In this document: positions 3,836-37,286 of the stretch, one piece after another
Layout: every line of letters begins with the position of its first letter
Position numbering within the stretch: position 1 is the first letter of the stretch
From: Synergistaceae bacterium
Lineage (GTDB): Bacteria; Synergistota; Synergistia; Synergistales; Aminobacteriaceae
Reading direction: 5' to 3'
Assembly: GCA_017448795.1 (NCBI GenBank)
Contig: JAFSKV010000024.1
Span: forward strand, 1 to 38,632
DNA: 38,632 bases
The notes under the pieces: model-generated
Database searches by the model: none
What the model was told of the DNA's origin: nothing
What the model saw: the letters and a program-made list of their open reading frames with translations, nothing else
Program-made: the position numbers and the translations under genes

Positions 3836-4213
3836 TTACGCCGTAATGTTCCTCACATGCTCAAGCGTCCAGTCCTCAAGGCTTCCCTTTGTGTCAATCG
3901 TTACGGCTATGAGGTCAATCCTCCAGAATCCCTCCCAGCCTATGCAGTCAACATATTCTTCTGAGGCTCTGAGAAGCGCACGCATTTTCCGGCGGTCAAC
4001 AGAGTCTATTGCGTCTTGGACATTGTTGCGTGTCCTGCACCTTACCTCGACTATCACGAGTTCTTGGGGAATGTCTTTAGGGTCAAAGGCCACGATGTCG
4101 AGCTCTCCGTATTGGTCTCTGACGTTGCGGACGAGAATCTTCCAGCCTAGTGAGACGAGATATTTTGCGGCCAGATCTTCGGCGTAACGTCCCAGCTTTT
4201 GGGAGTCGATCAC
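3836..4213 (-). CDS. yraN: UPF0102 / YraN family nuclease-fold protein
   Basis: A small protein of the YraN family, which has a restriction-endonuclease-like fold and unsettled function. The family signature is clear: LGRYAEDLAAKYLVSLGWKI, then YGELDIVAFD and VIVEVRCRTR, i.e. the E...D...E-x-(K/R) core. I choose GTG 4213 as start because its GTGA overlaps the stop of the FlhB-like gene, suggesting translational coupling. A GTG at 4261 would add 16 residues. It is the last gene of the minus-strand housekeeping run. yraN is commonly found beside rnhB, rbgA and lepB, as here. Confidence 0.88.
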   Translation of the reverse strand: MIDSQKLGRYAEDLAAKYLVSLGWKILVRNVRDQYGELDIVAFDPKDIPQELVIVEVRCRTRNNVQDAIDSVDRRKMRALLRASEEYVDCIGWEGFWRIDLIAVTIDTKGSLEDWTLEHVRNITA

Positions 4214-32549: not shown

Positions 32550-32888
32550 CTAGCCCGGAGGCCAGCCGAGATTGCGTCCTGCCAGCAGGTGCAGGTGAAG
32601 GTGAGGTACTGACTGCCCGCCCTGTTCTCCCGTGTTGATGACCATACGGTAACCGTCTGCCTCAAGTCCTAAGTTACGGGCAATCTTCACTGCGCTGTCC
32701 ATCAGGCTGCTCCACACTGAGGAGTCTTCTACAGCCGCTGAGGAGGGTATATGCTTCTTTGGGATGACCAGTATGTGAACGGGTGCCTGCGGATTAACAT
32801 CACGGAATGCCGCAACGTTATCATCCTCATAGACGAATGCTGACGGTATCTCTCCGCCTGCTATCTTGCAGAAAATACAATCGCTCAT
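32550..32888 (-). CDS. HIT-family nucleotide-binding protein (HINT type)
   Basis: A 112-residue HIT protein. N-terminal zinc-like MSDCIFCKIAGGEIPS, then VHILVIPKKHI and the triad HLHLHLLAG (His96, His98, His100) followed by LGWPPG, as in HINT purine nucleoside phosphoramidases. The frame is open to 32918, but ATG 32888 starts the canonical N-terminus and has GAGGAGG upstream. It is the first gene of a HIT-rpsU-yqeY transcript. It probably hydrolyses AMP-lysine or adenylated intermediates. Confidence 0.95.
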   Translation of the reverse strand: MSDCIFCKIAGGEIPSAFVYEDDNVAAFRDVNPQAPVHILVIPKKHIPSSAAVEDSSVWSSLMDSAVKIARNLGLEADGYRMVINTGEQGGQSVPHLHLHLLAGRNLGWPPG

Positions 32889-32922
32889 GAAATTTTTTTG
32901 CCTCCTCTGGAATGACATGTAG

Positions 32923-32978: not shown

Positions 32979-34094
32979 TCACCTGCCGCCTTTCTTCCTG
33001 TTGCACGGCCTGCACAGCACTTGGCAGTTATCCGGCACTGTCTTTCCTCCTTTGCTCCACGGGGTGATATGGTCGGCCTCCATCTCCTCAAGCCCGAAAA
33101 CTTTTCCGCACACAGCGCACTTATGCCCCTGCCTCTCGTACGCGCTGATCTTGTCCCTGTCAGGAAATTTCCGCAGGCTCAAGTGCCGTTCGTCCCCGTC
33201 AAGAATGTACTCATAAATCCCCTGCTTGTTCTTCACTTCATCGTCGGCAAGCAGCGCGCTTATTCTAGCCTCAAGCTCCGAAGGGTTAAGATCTTTGCGT
33301 CCGCCGTAAACATGGTACAGTTTCCCCCAGTCTATACCCTGCATGAGCTTCCTGCGCTTCTCCGGGAAAGTGAACATCACCCAGTCTATGACACTCCTGA
33401 AATAGAGCCACATTTCCCCGCAGTCCTTATCGTGCTGGTGAGCAGACATGTATCTTTCCACGAGGGATTTACGGTTTCCCCTCATCCCGTCATGAAATGC
33501 CGCCCAGTATATTGCGGTCTCAAGGTAGTCTTGGCGTTCCGGCCTTCCCTTGAGGTAATCTGCCGCTTCTCTTTCTGCCGGGCATCCCCTCTTGCTGAAT
33601 TTCAGCCTCGCTTCTGTTACCCAAGGCCCGGAAAAAAGCGCGTTGTTCCTTTCCTGCTCTGTCAGCTTTTCGCCGGCAATGTTTATCGTTTCGAACCAGT
33701 CCAGTTTTTCGCGGTCAGTGCCCTCACAGATGTATATCATGAGCCTGTAGCCTAGTACCTGCCCGCGTTCCTCGCCCGTCAGGTTGAAGTAGCTCAGTCC
33801 GTCAAGATTAACCCGGCCTTCAAGGTAGTTGCATATGCTGATGGTTCGTTGCTGTCCGTCGAGCATCTCGAAGCCTCCCGCCGAGTTTCTCACCCAGTAC
33901 ATGACGTTGAGGGGGAAATTGTGCCTCAAGGAGTGTATGACTTTTGCCTGCTGCTCGTCGGTGTAGATGAACTCGCGCTGAAATTCCGGGCGTATGCTGA
34001 GTCTTCCGCCGTAACCGTAGACTCCTCCTTCTCCTTCGTCGCGGTAACCTTCATGTATCTCACTGACTGTGATTTCGTGCGGCTCAATCTTCAT
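32979..34094 (-). CDS. DUF262-HNH endonuclease-like protein
   Basis: A 371-residue soluble protein with an N-terminal DUF262 (ParB/sulfiredoxin-like) domain and a C-terminal HNH nuclease. DUF262 marks: IRPEFQREFIYTDEQQAKVIHSLRHNFPLN and the nucleotide-binding/hydrolysis motif LDGQQRT (78-84). The HNH module fills the last 48 residues: CAVC (326-329), ADHITPWSKGG (Asp341-His342), DNCQVLC and CRPCN, i.e. four Cys for zinc, the His-Asn-His-like core and Asn356. DUF262-nuclease fusions are known in modification-dependent or restriction systems (GmrSD, BrxU have DUF1524 instead of this HNH). The ATG has GGAGGA 7 nt upstream and follows the methyltransferase gene by 94 nt. It is the presumed effector of that pair. 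Confidence 0.88.
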   Translation of the reverse strand: MKIEPHEITVSEIHEGYRDEGEGGVYGYGGRLSIRPEFQREFIYTDEQQAKVIHSLRHNFPLNVMYWVRNSAGGFEMLDGQQRTISICNYLEGRVNLDGLSYFNLTGEERGQVLGYRLMIYICEGTDREKLDWFETINIAGEKLTEQERNNALFSGPWVTEARLKFSKRGCPAEREAADYLKGRPERQDYLETAIYWAAFHDGMRGNRKSLVERYMSAHQHDKDCGEMWLYFRSVIDWVMFTFPEKRRKLMQGIDWGKLYHVYGGRKDLNPSELEARISALLADDEVKNKQGIYEYILDGDERHLSLRKFPDRDKISAYERQGHKCAVCGKVFGLEEMEADHITPWSKGGKTVPDNCQVLCRPCNRKKGGR

Positions 34095-34188
34095 GGCATG
34101 TCCTCCGTGTCTTTGCGTCTGATCAGGATTCTCGCGTACATTTTCCGGCCTCTCAGGTAAGCCCTTTCACCGTTGGCCGCCGGGTGTC
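34091..34188 (-). other. orphan second C-terminal tail of an EcoRI-family methyltransferase
   Basis: Between the methyltransferase stop and the DUF262 start, one frame reads GERAYLRGRKMYARILIRR and a few more residues, ending in TGA at 34093-34091 that overlaps the DUF262 ATG as ATGA. YARILIRR here (34138-34115) repeats the tail at 34220-34197, which is encoded in another frame. Six of the eight codons differ synonymously. No start codon precedes it, and a TAA separates it from the G-tract in this frame. It looks like the 3' end of a methyltransferase gene, either a switchable tail or a remnant. Confidence 0.6.
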
Positions 34189-35232
34189 TCAGGCCGCCGC
34201 CGTATTAGGATTCGGGCGTATGGGTACGTAGTTTTGCCCCCCCCCCCCTACGTCATTATACGTATAGACAAGGTCCTTGCCGTCGCTGCCTTTCCTGAAC
34301 GCTACAATCTCGAACTGTTCAGGATTATAACGCTGAAGGAAGGTAATCGGGACTCCCATAACGCCGTCATAGTCGCAGGGAATATCATCAACCCGGCTGA
34401 CTTCTATTGCGTCGTAGTTGTCATACTTGGGATATTTTGCCGGGTCATAGCGGCGGTAAAGGAAAATTTTTTCCCGGCGTTTCTTGATTTCCAGGTTGGT
34501 GAACCAGCAGCAGTTGCGGAATTTCACGAGGCCTGTCTCATGGTTGTAGTCCTTGTACTTGGAGGGGTCTTCGGCTGACGGGATGGAGAAGCGTGCGTTC
34601 CCTCCCATGAAGCCGTAGCCGAACCACATACGGTTTTGCATGAACAGCGGGAATATGTCTTTGTAGGTTACAGCGTTGATGTTGCCGACTATCACGAACT
34701 TCTTGTTGTACCTCATGAGGAGGGCTATGTATTCCCGGAGAAGAGAGAAGGGAGGGTTTGTCACCACAACGTCAGCATCTTCCAGCAGCTCCACACACTC
34801 CGGGCTTCGGAAATCTCCGTCCCCTTTCAGTTTGCGCAAAGCACCCGGAATATTCTTCATCGCCCAGATTGCGTCGTTCATGTCCGTCCTGCCGTCGCCG
34901 TTGAAGTCCCGGAGTTCCGTCAATGTCGCGCAGTAAGGAGTCCTCATTGGTGCAGGGGTGTCTTCCTCGAACAGCGAGATCTGCTGCTGGGCTATGGGAC
35001 TCCCGGCGTAACATGTGGCTGTGAGTTTGGCGAGTCTCAAGGGCAGGTGAAACCGTGTCGCGAAGTACTCGAAAAATTTGCTCTCGAAGGGGTCATCACA
35101 GTTGCACAAAATCTTTTTGCCGTAAAAGTGTTCCCAGTAGTAGCCGAGCTCGCGCTCAATGTCCCCGGTCTGCGTGTAAAATTCATCCTGCTGAGTCCTG
35201 GCCGCCGCCTGTAACGCTCTGTTCTTCGCCAT
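34189..35232 (-). CDS. EcoRI-family adenine-specific DNA methyltransferase, with G12 tract near the 3' end
   Basis: A 347-residue predicted N6-adenine methyltransferase of the EcoRI methylase family. Motifs: ILCNCDDPFESKFFEYF (41-57), GDGDFRSPECVELL (137-150), VVVTNPPFSLLREY (catalytic NPPF 159-162), KKFVIVGNINAVTYKDIFPLF, and ITFLQRYNPEQFEIVAFRKGSDGKDL. Residues 109-120 (DFNGDGRTDMND) fit the EF-hand/dockerin calcium loop pattern perfectly. ATG 35232 follows GGAAAGGTG; the frame is open to 35280. At 34237-34248 the coding strand has 12 consecutive G (Gly329-332). The 15 residues after it (QNYVPIRPNPNTAAA) lack the YARILIRR-type tail that the 11-G frame would give. So the gene as read may be the altered or OFF phase. 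It is the presumed partner of DUF262-HNH. Confidence 0.88.
   Translation of the reverse strand: MAKNRALQAAARTQQDEFYTQTGDIERELGYYWEHFYGKKILCNCDDPFESKFFEYFATRFHLPLRLAKLTATCYAGSPIAQQQISLFEEDTPAPMRTPYCATLTELRDFNGDGRTDMNDAIWAMKNIPGALRKLKGDGDFRSPECVELLEDADVVVTNPPFSLLREYIALLMRYNKKFVIVGNINAVTYKDIFPLFMQNRMWFGYGFMGGNARFSIPSAEDPSKYKDYNHETGLVKFRNCCWFTNLEIKKRREKIFLYRRYDPAKYPKYDNYDAIEVSRVDDIPCDYDGVMGVPITFLQRYNPEQFEIVAFRKGSDGKDLVYTYNDVGGGGQNYVPIRPNPNTAAA
34237..34248 (-). repeat. 12-base G homopolymer in the methyltransferase gene
   Basis: An uninterrupted run of 12 C on the plus strand (12 G in the gene), by far the longest homopolymer in the window. Such tracts inside coding sequence change length by slipped-strand mispairing and switch reading frame. 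It could also hide a sequencing miscount. Confidence 0.9.
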
Positions 35233-35297: not shown

Positions 35298-37286
35298 ATG
35301 AAGACGCAAAAACATTTCATCCTATATTCCCAGTGGCCGCCGGCAGGAGACCAGCCCCAAGCAATCGACGCACTGACTCAAAGCATCATGGCCGGAAACC
35401 GCTTCCAGACCCTCAAGGGCGTAACAGGCAGCGGAAAGACTTTCACAGTCGCAAACGTAATCGCAAACCTTAACCGCCCCGCCCTCATCCTCGCGCACAA
35501 CAAGACACTTGCCGCCCAGCTCTACAGCGAGTTCAAGGCATTCTTCCCCGAAAACGCCGTAAGATATTTCGTCAGCTACTACGACTACTACCAGCCCGAA
35601 GCCTACATCCCCCAGTCAGACACGTACATAGAGAAGGACGCTTCAGTCAACGAACGCATAGAAAGACTCAGGCTCTCAGCAACTAAGGCACTGATTGAGC
35701 GTCATGACGTTATCGTTGTGGCTAGCGTCTCATGCCTTTACGGACTCGGAATGAAGGAGGCCTACGAGTCGGCGATAATCTCATTCAGCGTCGGCGACAG
35801 GATAGACGAGCGGGAATTTCTGGCGCGTCTTGTCGGGAATTACTATGAGCGTACTGACTACACGCCAGAGCCGGGCAAGTTCAGGGTACGGGGTGATACT
35901 GTCGAGATTTTCCCGGCCTATGAGGAGGATATATGCATAAGGGTAACTTTCTTTGACGACGAAATAGAGCGCATAGACATCACTCACCCGCTTACCGGCC
36001 ATGTGTTGGAGACCGTGAAAGAAGCCAGCGTTTTCCCTGCACAGCACTATGTTACGCAGACGGACGCAATCACGAACGCAGTCCCTGAGATTCAGGCGGA
36101 ATTGTCGCGTGTTGAGATGGAATTTACGGCGCGTGGGAAGCTCGTTGAGGCCCAGCGGATAAAGATGCGGACGCTTTACGATATAGAGATGCTGACGGAG
36201 GCGGGGTACTGTTCGGGAATCGAGAATTATTCTGTCTACCTTGACGGGCGGAATCACGGTCAGCCGCCGGGAACATTGATTGACTTTTTCCCGGAAGATT
36301 TCCTTGTTGTTGTCGACGAGTCTCACATAACGCTGCCGCAGGTCCGGGCCATGTACAACGGCGACCATGCCCGCAAGAATGTCCTAGTCGAAAACGGTTT
36401 CAGGCTTCCTTCATGCATGGACAACAGGCCGCTTCAATGGCACGAGTTCGAGTCGAGGATGAGGCAGGCAATCTTTGTGTCAGCGACTCCGGGGGACTAT
36501 GAGCTTCGTTCATCCAGCGTAACAGCAGAGCAGATTATCCGTCCTACCGGGATTCCTGACCCTGAAGTTGAAGTACTCCCGGCGAAAACTCAGGTTGACG
36601 ACCTCATAGACAAGCTCAGGGAGAACATGAAGGCAGGGGGGCGTTCACTTGTTCTGACTCTGACGAAGAAGGCCTCCGAGGATCTGGCCGATTATCTCAG
36701 GGAGCTGAAGTTCCGGGTCAAGTACATACATTCGGAGCTTAACACGTTTGAGCGGGCTGAATTAATCCGGGACTTGAGGGCGGGGAAAATTGATGTCCTT
36801 GTGGGGATTAACCTTCTGCGCGAGGGAATGGACCTGCCGGAAGTTACTCTTGTTGCGATTCTTGATGCTGACCGTGAAGGCTTCCTGCGTTCTTACAGGT
36901 CATTGATTCAGGTCATGGGACGTGCGGCTAGGAACGTCAGCAGCCGTGTCATCCTTTACGCCGACAACGTAACCGACAGCATCACTCAGGCCGTCAGCGA
37001 AACAATGTCGCGCCGTAAACGTCAGACAGACTTCAACCGCGAGAACGGAATTACCCCCCAGAGCATCATGAAGACGGTGAAGGACTTATTGCCGCCTGAG
37101 CTTTCTTCAGCTTACGGGGACGGGGGGCATCAAGGGGCTTCACGGACACCGGGCAAATCCAGGAGTGTCGGGAAAATGAGCGTGTCCGAGCTTGAGCGCG
37201 AGATGTGGGACGCTGTCGACAAGCTGGACTTTGAGCGGGCAGCTATGCTTCGTGATATTATCTCGGAAAAAGAGAAGGGGGAATAA
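35298..37286 (+). CDS. uvrB: excinuclease ABC subunit B
   Basis: The damage-verifying helicase-like subunit of nucleotide excision repair, 662 residues. Walker A GVTGSGKT (41-48), beta-hairpin YYDYYQPEAYIPQSDTYIEK starting near 94, Walker B DESH, the motif FVSATPGDYE, helicase motifs INLLREGMDLPEV and QVMGRAARN, and the C-terminal UVR (UvrC-interacting) motif LEREMWDAVDKLDFERAAMLRD. Complete. The ATG is preceded by AAAGGAGA at 35281-35288. The short leader suggests a simple promoter (TATAAT at 35268). No LexA-like box was recognised. The chrA-type genes follow after 2 nt and may be co-transcribed. Confidence 0.97.
   Translation: MKTQKHFILYSQWPPAGDQPQAIDALTQSIMAGNRFQTLKGVTGSGKTFTVANVIANLNRPALILAHNKTLAAQLYSEFKAFFPENAVRYFVSYYDYYQPEAYIPQSDTYIEKDASVNERIERLRLSATKALIERHDVIVVASVSCLYGLGMKEAYESAIISFSVGDRIDEREFLARLVGNYYERTDYTPEPGKFRVRGDTVEIFPAYEEDICIRVTFFDDEIERIDITHPLTGHVLETVKEASVFPAQHYVTQTDAITNAVPEIQAELSRVEMEFTARGKLVEAQRIKMRTLYDIEMLTEAGYCSGIENYSVYLDGRNHGQPPGTLIDFFPEDFLVVVDESHITLPQVRAMYNGDHARKNVLVENGFRLPSCMDNRPLQWHEFESRMRQAIFVSATPGDYELRSSSVTAEQIIRPTGIPDPEVEVLPAKTQVDDLIDKLRENMKAGGRSLVLTLTKKASEDLADYLRELKFRVKYIHSELNTFERAELIRDLRAGKIDVLVGINLLREGMDLPEVTLVAILDADREGFLRSYRSLIQVMGRAARNVSSRVILYADNVTDSITQAVSETMSRRKRQTDFNRENGITPQSIMKTVKDLLPPELSSAYGDGGHQGASRTPGKSRSVGKMSVSELEREMWDAVDKLDFERAAMLRDIISEKEKGE

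Follow-up and report, generated by a model that had tools for sequence, protein, structure and literature searches.

Introduction

Phase-variable methyltransferases have mostly been described as ON/OFF switches or as systems with recombining specificity subunits. The Type III mod phasevarions are of the former kind, being turned ON and OFF by repeats, and Type I hsdS is of the latter, varying by recombination; in such systems a methyltransferase or a specificity is switched at random, and the nuclease follows the specificity subunit. In the Helicobacter pylori Type IIG enzymes JHP1272 (Hpy99XIV) and HP1353-HP1354 (HpyAXVI), a frameshift changes the specificity from GGWTAA to GGWCNA (Krebs et al., 2013; PMC3936762), and C-terminal phase variation, with a poly-G tract near the 3' end of the gene, has been described in Helicobacter canadensis (Snyder et al., 2010; PMC2823697).

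The DNA analyzed here (the window) is a 38,632-nt stretch of contig JAFSKV010000024.1 from a Synergistaceae bacterium (assembly GCA_017448795.1), and it carries a methyltransferase gene, M, with likenesses to each of these systems. As in the H. pylori enzymes, homopolymer slippage late in the gene would alter a C-terminal segment; however, those enzymes are fused single chains to which a domain is added, whereas here M (PF13651) and the restriction endonuclease R (DUF262-HNH) are separate and the M tail is replaced. Here, too, up to three frames and many repeat types are involved, and the change of specificity is predicted, whereas in H. pylori it was measured. As in H. canadensis, a poly-G tract near the 3' end would alter the C-terminus without stopping expression, but the alternative ends in H. 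canadensis are short ones whose value is not known, while the alternative ends found here have a common family motif and signs of selection in their own frames. In contrast to mod and hsdS, slippage would here select among overlapping, out-of-frame, putative recognition tails. M is of the same family as M.EcoRI, and its 11-G tail is of the EcoRI tail type; the EcoRI endonuclease, however, is a separate and independently specific enzyme, whereas the R considered here is a DUF262-HNH protein and the M tail would be switchable. A search of openly readable full texts, which include few subscription journals and preprints, found no published description of a DUF262-HNH/EcoRI-type M system. As far as the open literature shows, the new elements are the enzyme family, a tail that is exchanged rather than a domain that is added, the two or three overlapping frames ending in the motif, and the use of several repeat types.

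Results

The methyltransferase gene and its G tract

As assembled, M occupies 34189-35232 on the minus strand, and its conserved body (34249-35232) contains the catalytic motif VTNPPF and the anchor CDYDGVMGVPITFLQRYNPEQFEIV. The original prediction, made from the letters alone, had called it an EcoRI-family methyltransferase, and a match to PF13651 (EcoRI_methylase; E = 2.3e-125; 418.9 bits against a cutoff of 26.4; profile positions 2-305 of 345) bears this out for what we describe as an EcoRI-family N6-adenine methyltransferase; the protein also matched PADLOC MTase_II PDLC03297 (E = 5e-109). The Pfam profile does not separate the alternative frames, the match ending at position 305 of 345, before the tail, in each of them. 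Membership of the gene in PF13651 is not in doubt; judged by its sequence, the 12-G product is incomplete, lacking the terminal Y-x-R-x-x-I. No homologue of M with a solved structure was found by sequence search, and Foldseek on the M model gave no match with E < 0.001. VIA-align matched the model to generic SAM-dependent methyltransferase folds over about residues 8-303 (Z up to 11.2; 9.6 for M.TaqI), an alignment that does not cover the tail.

The run of 12 C on the plus strand at 34237-34248 reads as G12 in the coding strand and, in the ORF that begins with ATG at 35232, forms four GGG codons at residues 329-332, as had been predicted. All other homopolymers of the window are shorter (longest further C run, 6; longest G run, 7), and a first-order model leads one to expect only 0.004 runs of at least 12 G/C per window and 0.26 per 2.54-Mb genome. 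The genome assembly (2.54 Mb in 86 contigs) has 31 separate tracts of at least nine G, and among the 30 tracts compared in length at least 15 are 12-14 long; tracts of at least ten G are present in 42 of the genus's 43 genomes, with a maximum of 58 per genome. The tract in M therefore has an above-chance length, lies within a coding frame and alters the product through its length, which are the sequence marks of a candidate for repeat-mediated phase variation. By eye, the translations of the genome's tract genes (G000 contigs C1-C85, loci L009-L038) are mostly of surface, lipoprotein or glycan type and include reductase-, epimerase-, glycosyltransferase-, acyltransferase- and lipoprotein-like proteins. 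Many of these genes are out of frame as assembled, and across the genome the G tracts would amount to a large phase-variable repertoire in this rumen Synergistaceae genus. An Rfam search of the window gave no match.

Retranslation with 10, 11, 12, and 13 G reproduced every frame outcome that had been predicted. The assembled 12 G give a 347-aa protein ending GGGGQNYVPIRPNPNTAAA, the tail of which (QNYVPIRPNPNTAAA; 34189-34236, minus strand) lacks the near-invariant C-terminal family motif. With 11 G the protein has 354 aa and ends GGGGKTTYPYARILIRRRPETPGGQR (also written YPYARILIRRRPETPGGQR), and the motif is restored as YPYARILIRR; this tail 1 (KTTYPYARILIRRRPETPGGQR), which 8 or 14 G would also bring into frame, spans 34167-34236 on the minus strand, with YARILIRR at 34220-34198. 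With 10 or 13 G the products (341 and 342 aa) end in AKLRTHTPES (34205-34236, minus strand), followed by TAA at 34207-34205. Thus the repeat lies late in the gene and every frame yields a product, computed from the sequence, of 341-354 aa, as in C-terminal phase variation. Tail 1 is of the EcoRI type (FRKG..DGKDL ... PYxRILIRR). Same-genus locus L058 has this type of tail, as does L234, an E. coli plasmid M whose neighbor is a true EcoRI endonuclease; it also occurs in the M of an H. pylori prophage, for which an EcoRI endonuclease is annotated as the neighbor.

Behind the TAA, the 10/13-G frame continues into the remnant of a second tail (YGGGLRHPAANGERAYLRGRKMYARILIRRKDTEDMP; 34091-34204, minus strand), whose copy of YARILIRR(K) at 34138-34116, 82 nt downstream of the first, was missing from the original prediction. 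Because its TGA stop overlaps the start codon of R (ATGA), the sequence suggests that this second tail is the older native end. The 82-nt spacing equals that between tails in the homologous loci L149/L170 (82) and L119/L121 (83). With one intact tail and a second interrupted by TAA, the copy in the window is a reduced form, and for this copy alone ON/OFF may describe the switching as well as tail switching does.

The restriction endonuclease and the gene pair

Directly downstream of M lies R (32979-34094, minus strand), an intact 371-aa protein with GmrSD_N (DUF262) and HNH domains (PF03235, E = 5e-16; PF01844, E = 2e-14) and a match to PADLOC REase_II PDLC03418 (E = 1e-111). Since the adjacent genes match both PDLC03418 and MTase_II PDLC03297, the pair is a Type II restriction-modification system by PADLOC. 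It does not have the form of a GmrSD Type IV enzyme: GmrSD_N is present, but the C-terminus carries HNH (PF01844), and DUF1524 (GmrSD_C) gave no match in R at E 0.01. Neither is it a single-polypeptide Type IIG enzyme, M and R being separate genes. The arrangement is common in the family, a DUF262-HNH R lying directly downstream in 118 of 161 homologous M loci. By eye, the pair is flanked by a UvrB-like gene (35298-37286, plus strand) and a HIT-like gene (32550-32918, minus strand). Elsewhere in the genome there is an M paralogue of 78% identity (L060; G000:C1:44227-45180), which has another, non-repeat tail, GCTESEGKGFSNGLWDASSGVAQPLINGRRIYKRLFIRK, and near which no R was found within about 1.5 kb, as well as a degraded fragment of another M copy (G000:C79:28702-28910).

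Repeats at the equivalent site in homologues

Homologues bear repeats at the site equivalent to the window tract. The homologue set comprised about 155 sequences with a readable C-terminus, and statements at the level of the family come largely from metagenome-assembled records. Wherever a homologue has a repeat, the repeat sits where the window tract does; the taxa concerned are Synergistota, Bacteroidales, Clostridia and phage or prophage contigs. Poly-G occurs in L119 and L121 (G10 and G12; Bacteroidales), in L149 and L170 (G9 and G10; records labelled Porphyromonadaceae and Pseudoflavonifractor), interrupted in L159 (G7AG3), and as a G6 remnant in L164. Other units take its place in L123 ((AAGAG)7), L131 ((CAGA)22), L115 ((ACAG)19, at a contig end), L088 ((GA)6), L238 ((AG)10), and L239 (IMGVR_UViG_2875199372_000002; (CA)21 at 4107-4148), the last a phage- or prophage-borne M with three complete alternative tails. 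L239 would be a good experimental case if its source is a cultured isolate. In L065/L158, from goat rumen and of the same genus as the window, (GAGCA)4 lies slightly upstream of the site; two complete duplicated end modules follow in two frames, and the third runs into a stop. R comes about 780 nt downstream, after a small ORF that by eye looks HicB-like.

Among 152 homologues, the M bodies (135.6 kb) contained no repeats of such size, and the 300 nt after the anchor contained 10, eight of them inside the variable segment. A pattern search for a G tract followed by the tail motif found only the window in 188 Synergistota, and in 393 genomes from the order of G189 it found only L121 itself and one other match. 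Among viral sequences there were 14 matches, of which only L207 (at a contig end) resembles an M tail; L207 was left out of the analysis. Since almost no further cases were found in the 188 Synergistota and 393 further genomes, the poly-G architecture appears to be rare.

Alternative frames and selection

Members of the family end in a hypervariable insert, with an entropy of 2-3 bits compared with 0.3-2.5 in the body, and a closing strand with a near-invariant Y-x-R-x-x-I, a conservation taken from the alignment made here and forming no formal criterion of PF13651. An AlphaFold2 model, from an alignment with four rows from annotated records left out, has the insert unstructured (pLDDT < 50) and gives the last part of the tail, final strand included, a pLDDT of about 70-83.

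In seven loci (L119, L121, L123, L149, L159, L170, and L239) each of the three frames after the repeat stays open up to a terminal motif, and in four others (L238, L088, L131, and L158) two frames do so. The three-tail loci share ancestry within L119/L121/L123 and within L149/L159/L170, so that they do not represent seven independent origins; L239 is an independent three-tail set. In a Markov simulation, one motif-ending open frame arose in at most 0.8% of cases and two or more in none of 4000, whereas a single such frame is present in 139 of the 155 homologues and two or more in nine, and all nine of the latter have a repeat or its remnant. The spacing between tails is constant, at 82/83 nt and then 79/80 nt, and the loci differ in which tail is in frame as assembled: the long tail in L119, L123, and L159, the middle tail in L121 and L149, and the short tail in L170; these lengths come from loci of different species and do not describe one population.

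In six loci, most pairwise differences around the motif lie at third codon positions as counted in the frame of the tail concerned. Counts by codon position were [2,0,12] for the middle tail (L121/L123), and [0,1,8] (L159/L123) and [5,3,15] (L119/L149) for the long tail; the short tail offers few sites, and its signal is less clear between the two locus groups. These comparisons come from two related locus groups and are not fifteen independent tests. Because the third-position bias follows three different frames, the simplest reading of these sequences is that all three tails are translated and selectively retained in the relatives. A chance origin of the alternative frames was ruled out by the simulation together with the codon-position bias.

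Tail swapping and its link to R

Across 103 M-R pairs, sequence identity of the M body correlated with that of R (0.77), while the correlation of R with the tail was 0.17, and 0.05 given the body. L175 and L173 are 98% identical in the M body and 98% identical in R and have unrelated tails, and four records labelled Clostridia (L128, L135, L173, and L175) have near-identical M bodies, R proteins 94-98% identical and four different, unrelated tails. In these four, tails have been swapped in nature without any repeat. In a classical Type II pair, changing M alone would lead the cell to cut its own DNA. Since tails swap here at constant body and R, the tail appears to be a DNA recognition segment, a reading drawn from hypervariability, swapping and analogy, and the specificity of the DUF262-HNH R is probably set by M. 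That M-R pairs of near identity can bear unrelated tails speaks indirectly against an R that recognizes its target independently of M, and the intact R of the window, adjoining an M assembled without the terminal motif, fits an R that takes its target from M.

Discussion

We consider it likely, from the sequence comparisons, that the tract is a slipped-strand selector of the C-terminal, putatively recognition, tail of M, and that R follows M. Gain or loss of a single G would swap the tail while expression continues. The swappable recognition segment would lie between the PEQFEI anchor and the terminal Y-x-R-x-x-I strand, and as R would draw its specificity from M, the tail could change without suicide. 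Relatives in which two or all three frames lead to complete tails would be able to switch specificity two or three ways. For the window copy, a complete EcoRI-like tail would be made only at 11 G (length mod 3 = 2); the tails at 12 G and at 10 or 13 G, lacking the motif, are predicted to be inactive or altered, the older second tail lying behind the TAA. Slippage at the tract within this population is inferred from its sequence. The original claim that the gene is phase variable thus stands as far as a credible slippage switch goes, given the 31 tracts of the genome, the tracts of at least ten G in nearly all genomes of its genus and repeats at the site in unrelated taxa. A plain ON/OFF switch appears too simple, for a tract at the 3' end would swap the C-terminus without stopping expression, and relatives have two or three complete tails in selected frames.

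A plain ON/OFF switch, in which 11 G gives active M, other lengths are inactive and alternative tails have no role in this species, is possible, though we find it doubtful. The near-invariant motif does occur in only one of the three window frames, the second tail is blocked, and most other tracts of the genome resemble ON/OFF switches. However, such a switch would account neither for relatives whose tails are complete and under selection in two or three frames nor for a second motif copy retained in the window at an equal 82-nt spacing. The alternative tails might instead alter stability, M-R docking or regulation and leave DNA specificity unchanged, an idea that agrees with the disorder of the tail in the AlphaFold2 model and with a constant motif strand beside a variable insert. 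We think it unlikely, since tails of extreme diversity that are swapped at near-constant body and R behave like recognition cassettes, and since FRKG..PYFRILI tails belong to the M that adjoins a true EcoRI endonuclease and likewise to the H. pylori prophage M.

It is very improbable that the tract is an artifact of sequencing or assembly, or a G run without meaning in a gene under decay. The assembly is a draft in 86 contigs, homopolymers are error-prone and tail 2 is interrupted, but tract lengths in the genome are far from chance, nearly all genomes of the genus have such tracts, the relatives' repeats at the equivalent site are of other unit types that are not prone to that error, and both R and the M body are intact. 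Selection of the tail by slippage remains our preferred reading for the window. Its wider form is that EcoRI-type M and DUF262-HNH R make up a class in which M alone sets specificity and slippage picks among two or three recognition tails in overlapping frames, heritably and reversibly switching both methylation and restriction; to this we would give an even chance.

In a family whose prototype is a textbook enzyme, it appears that one repeat decides which of as many as three recognition tails, overlapping in three frames, is used. If this is true, the bacterium would have a one-step, reversible change of restriction specificity against phages, with self-cutting avoided because R follows M, and the family would offer naturally swappable recognition tails for methyltransferase engineering. 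EcoRI-family methyltransferases that are recorded in databases as "frameshifted" may then be switches rather than pseudogenes.
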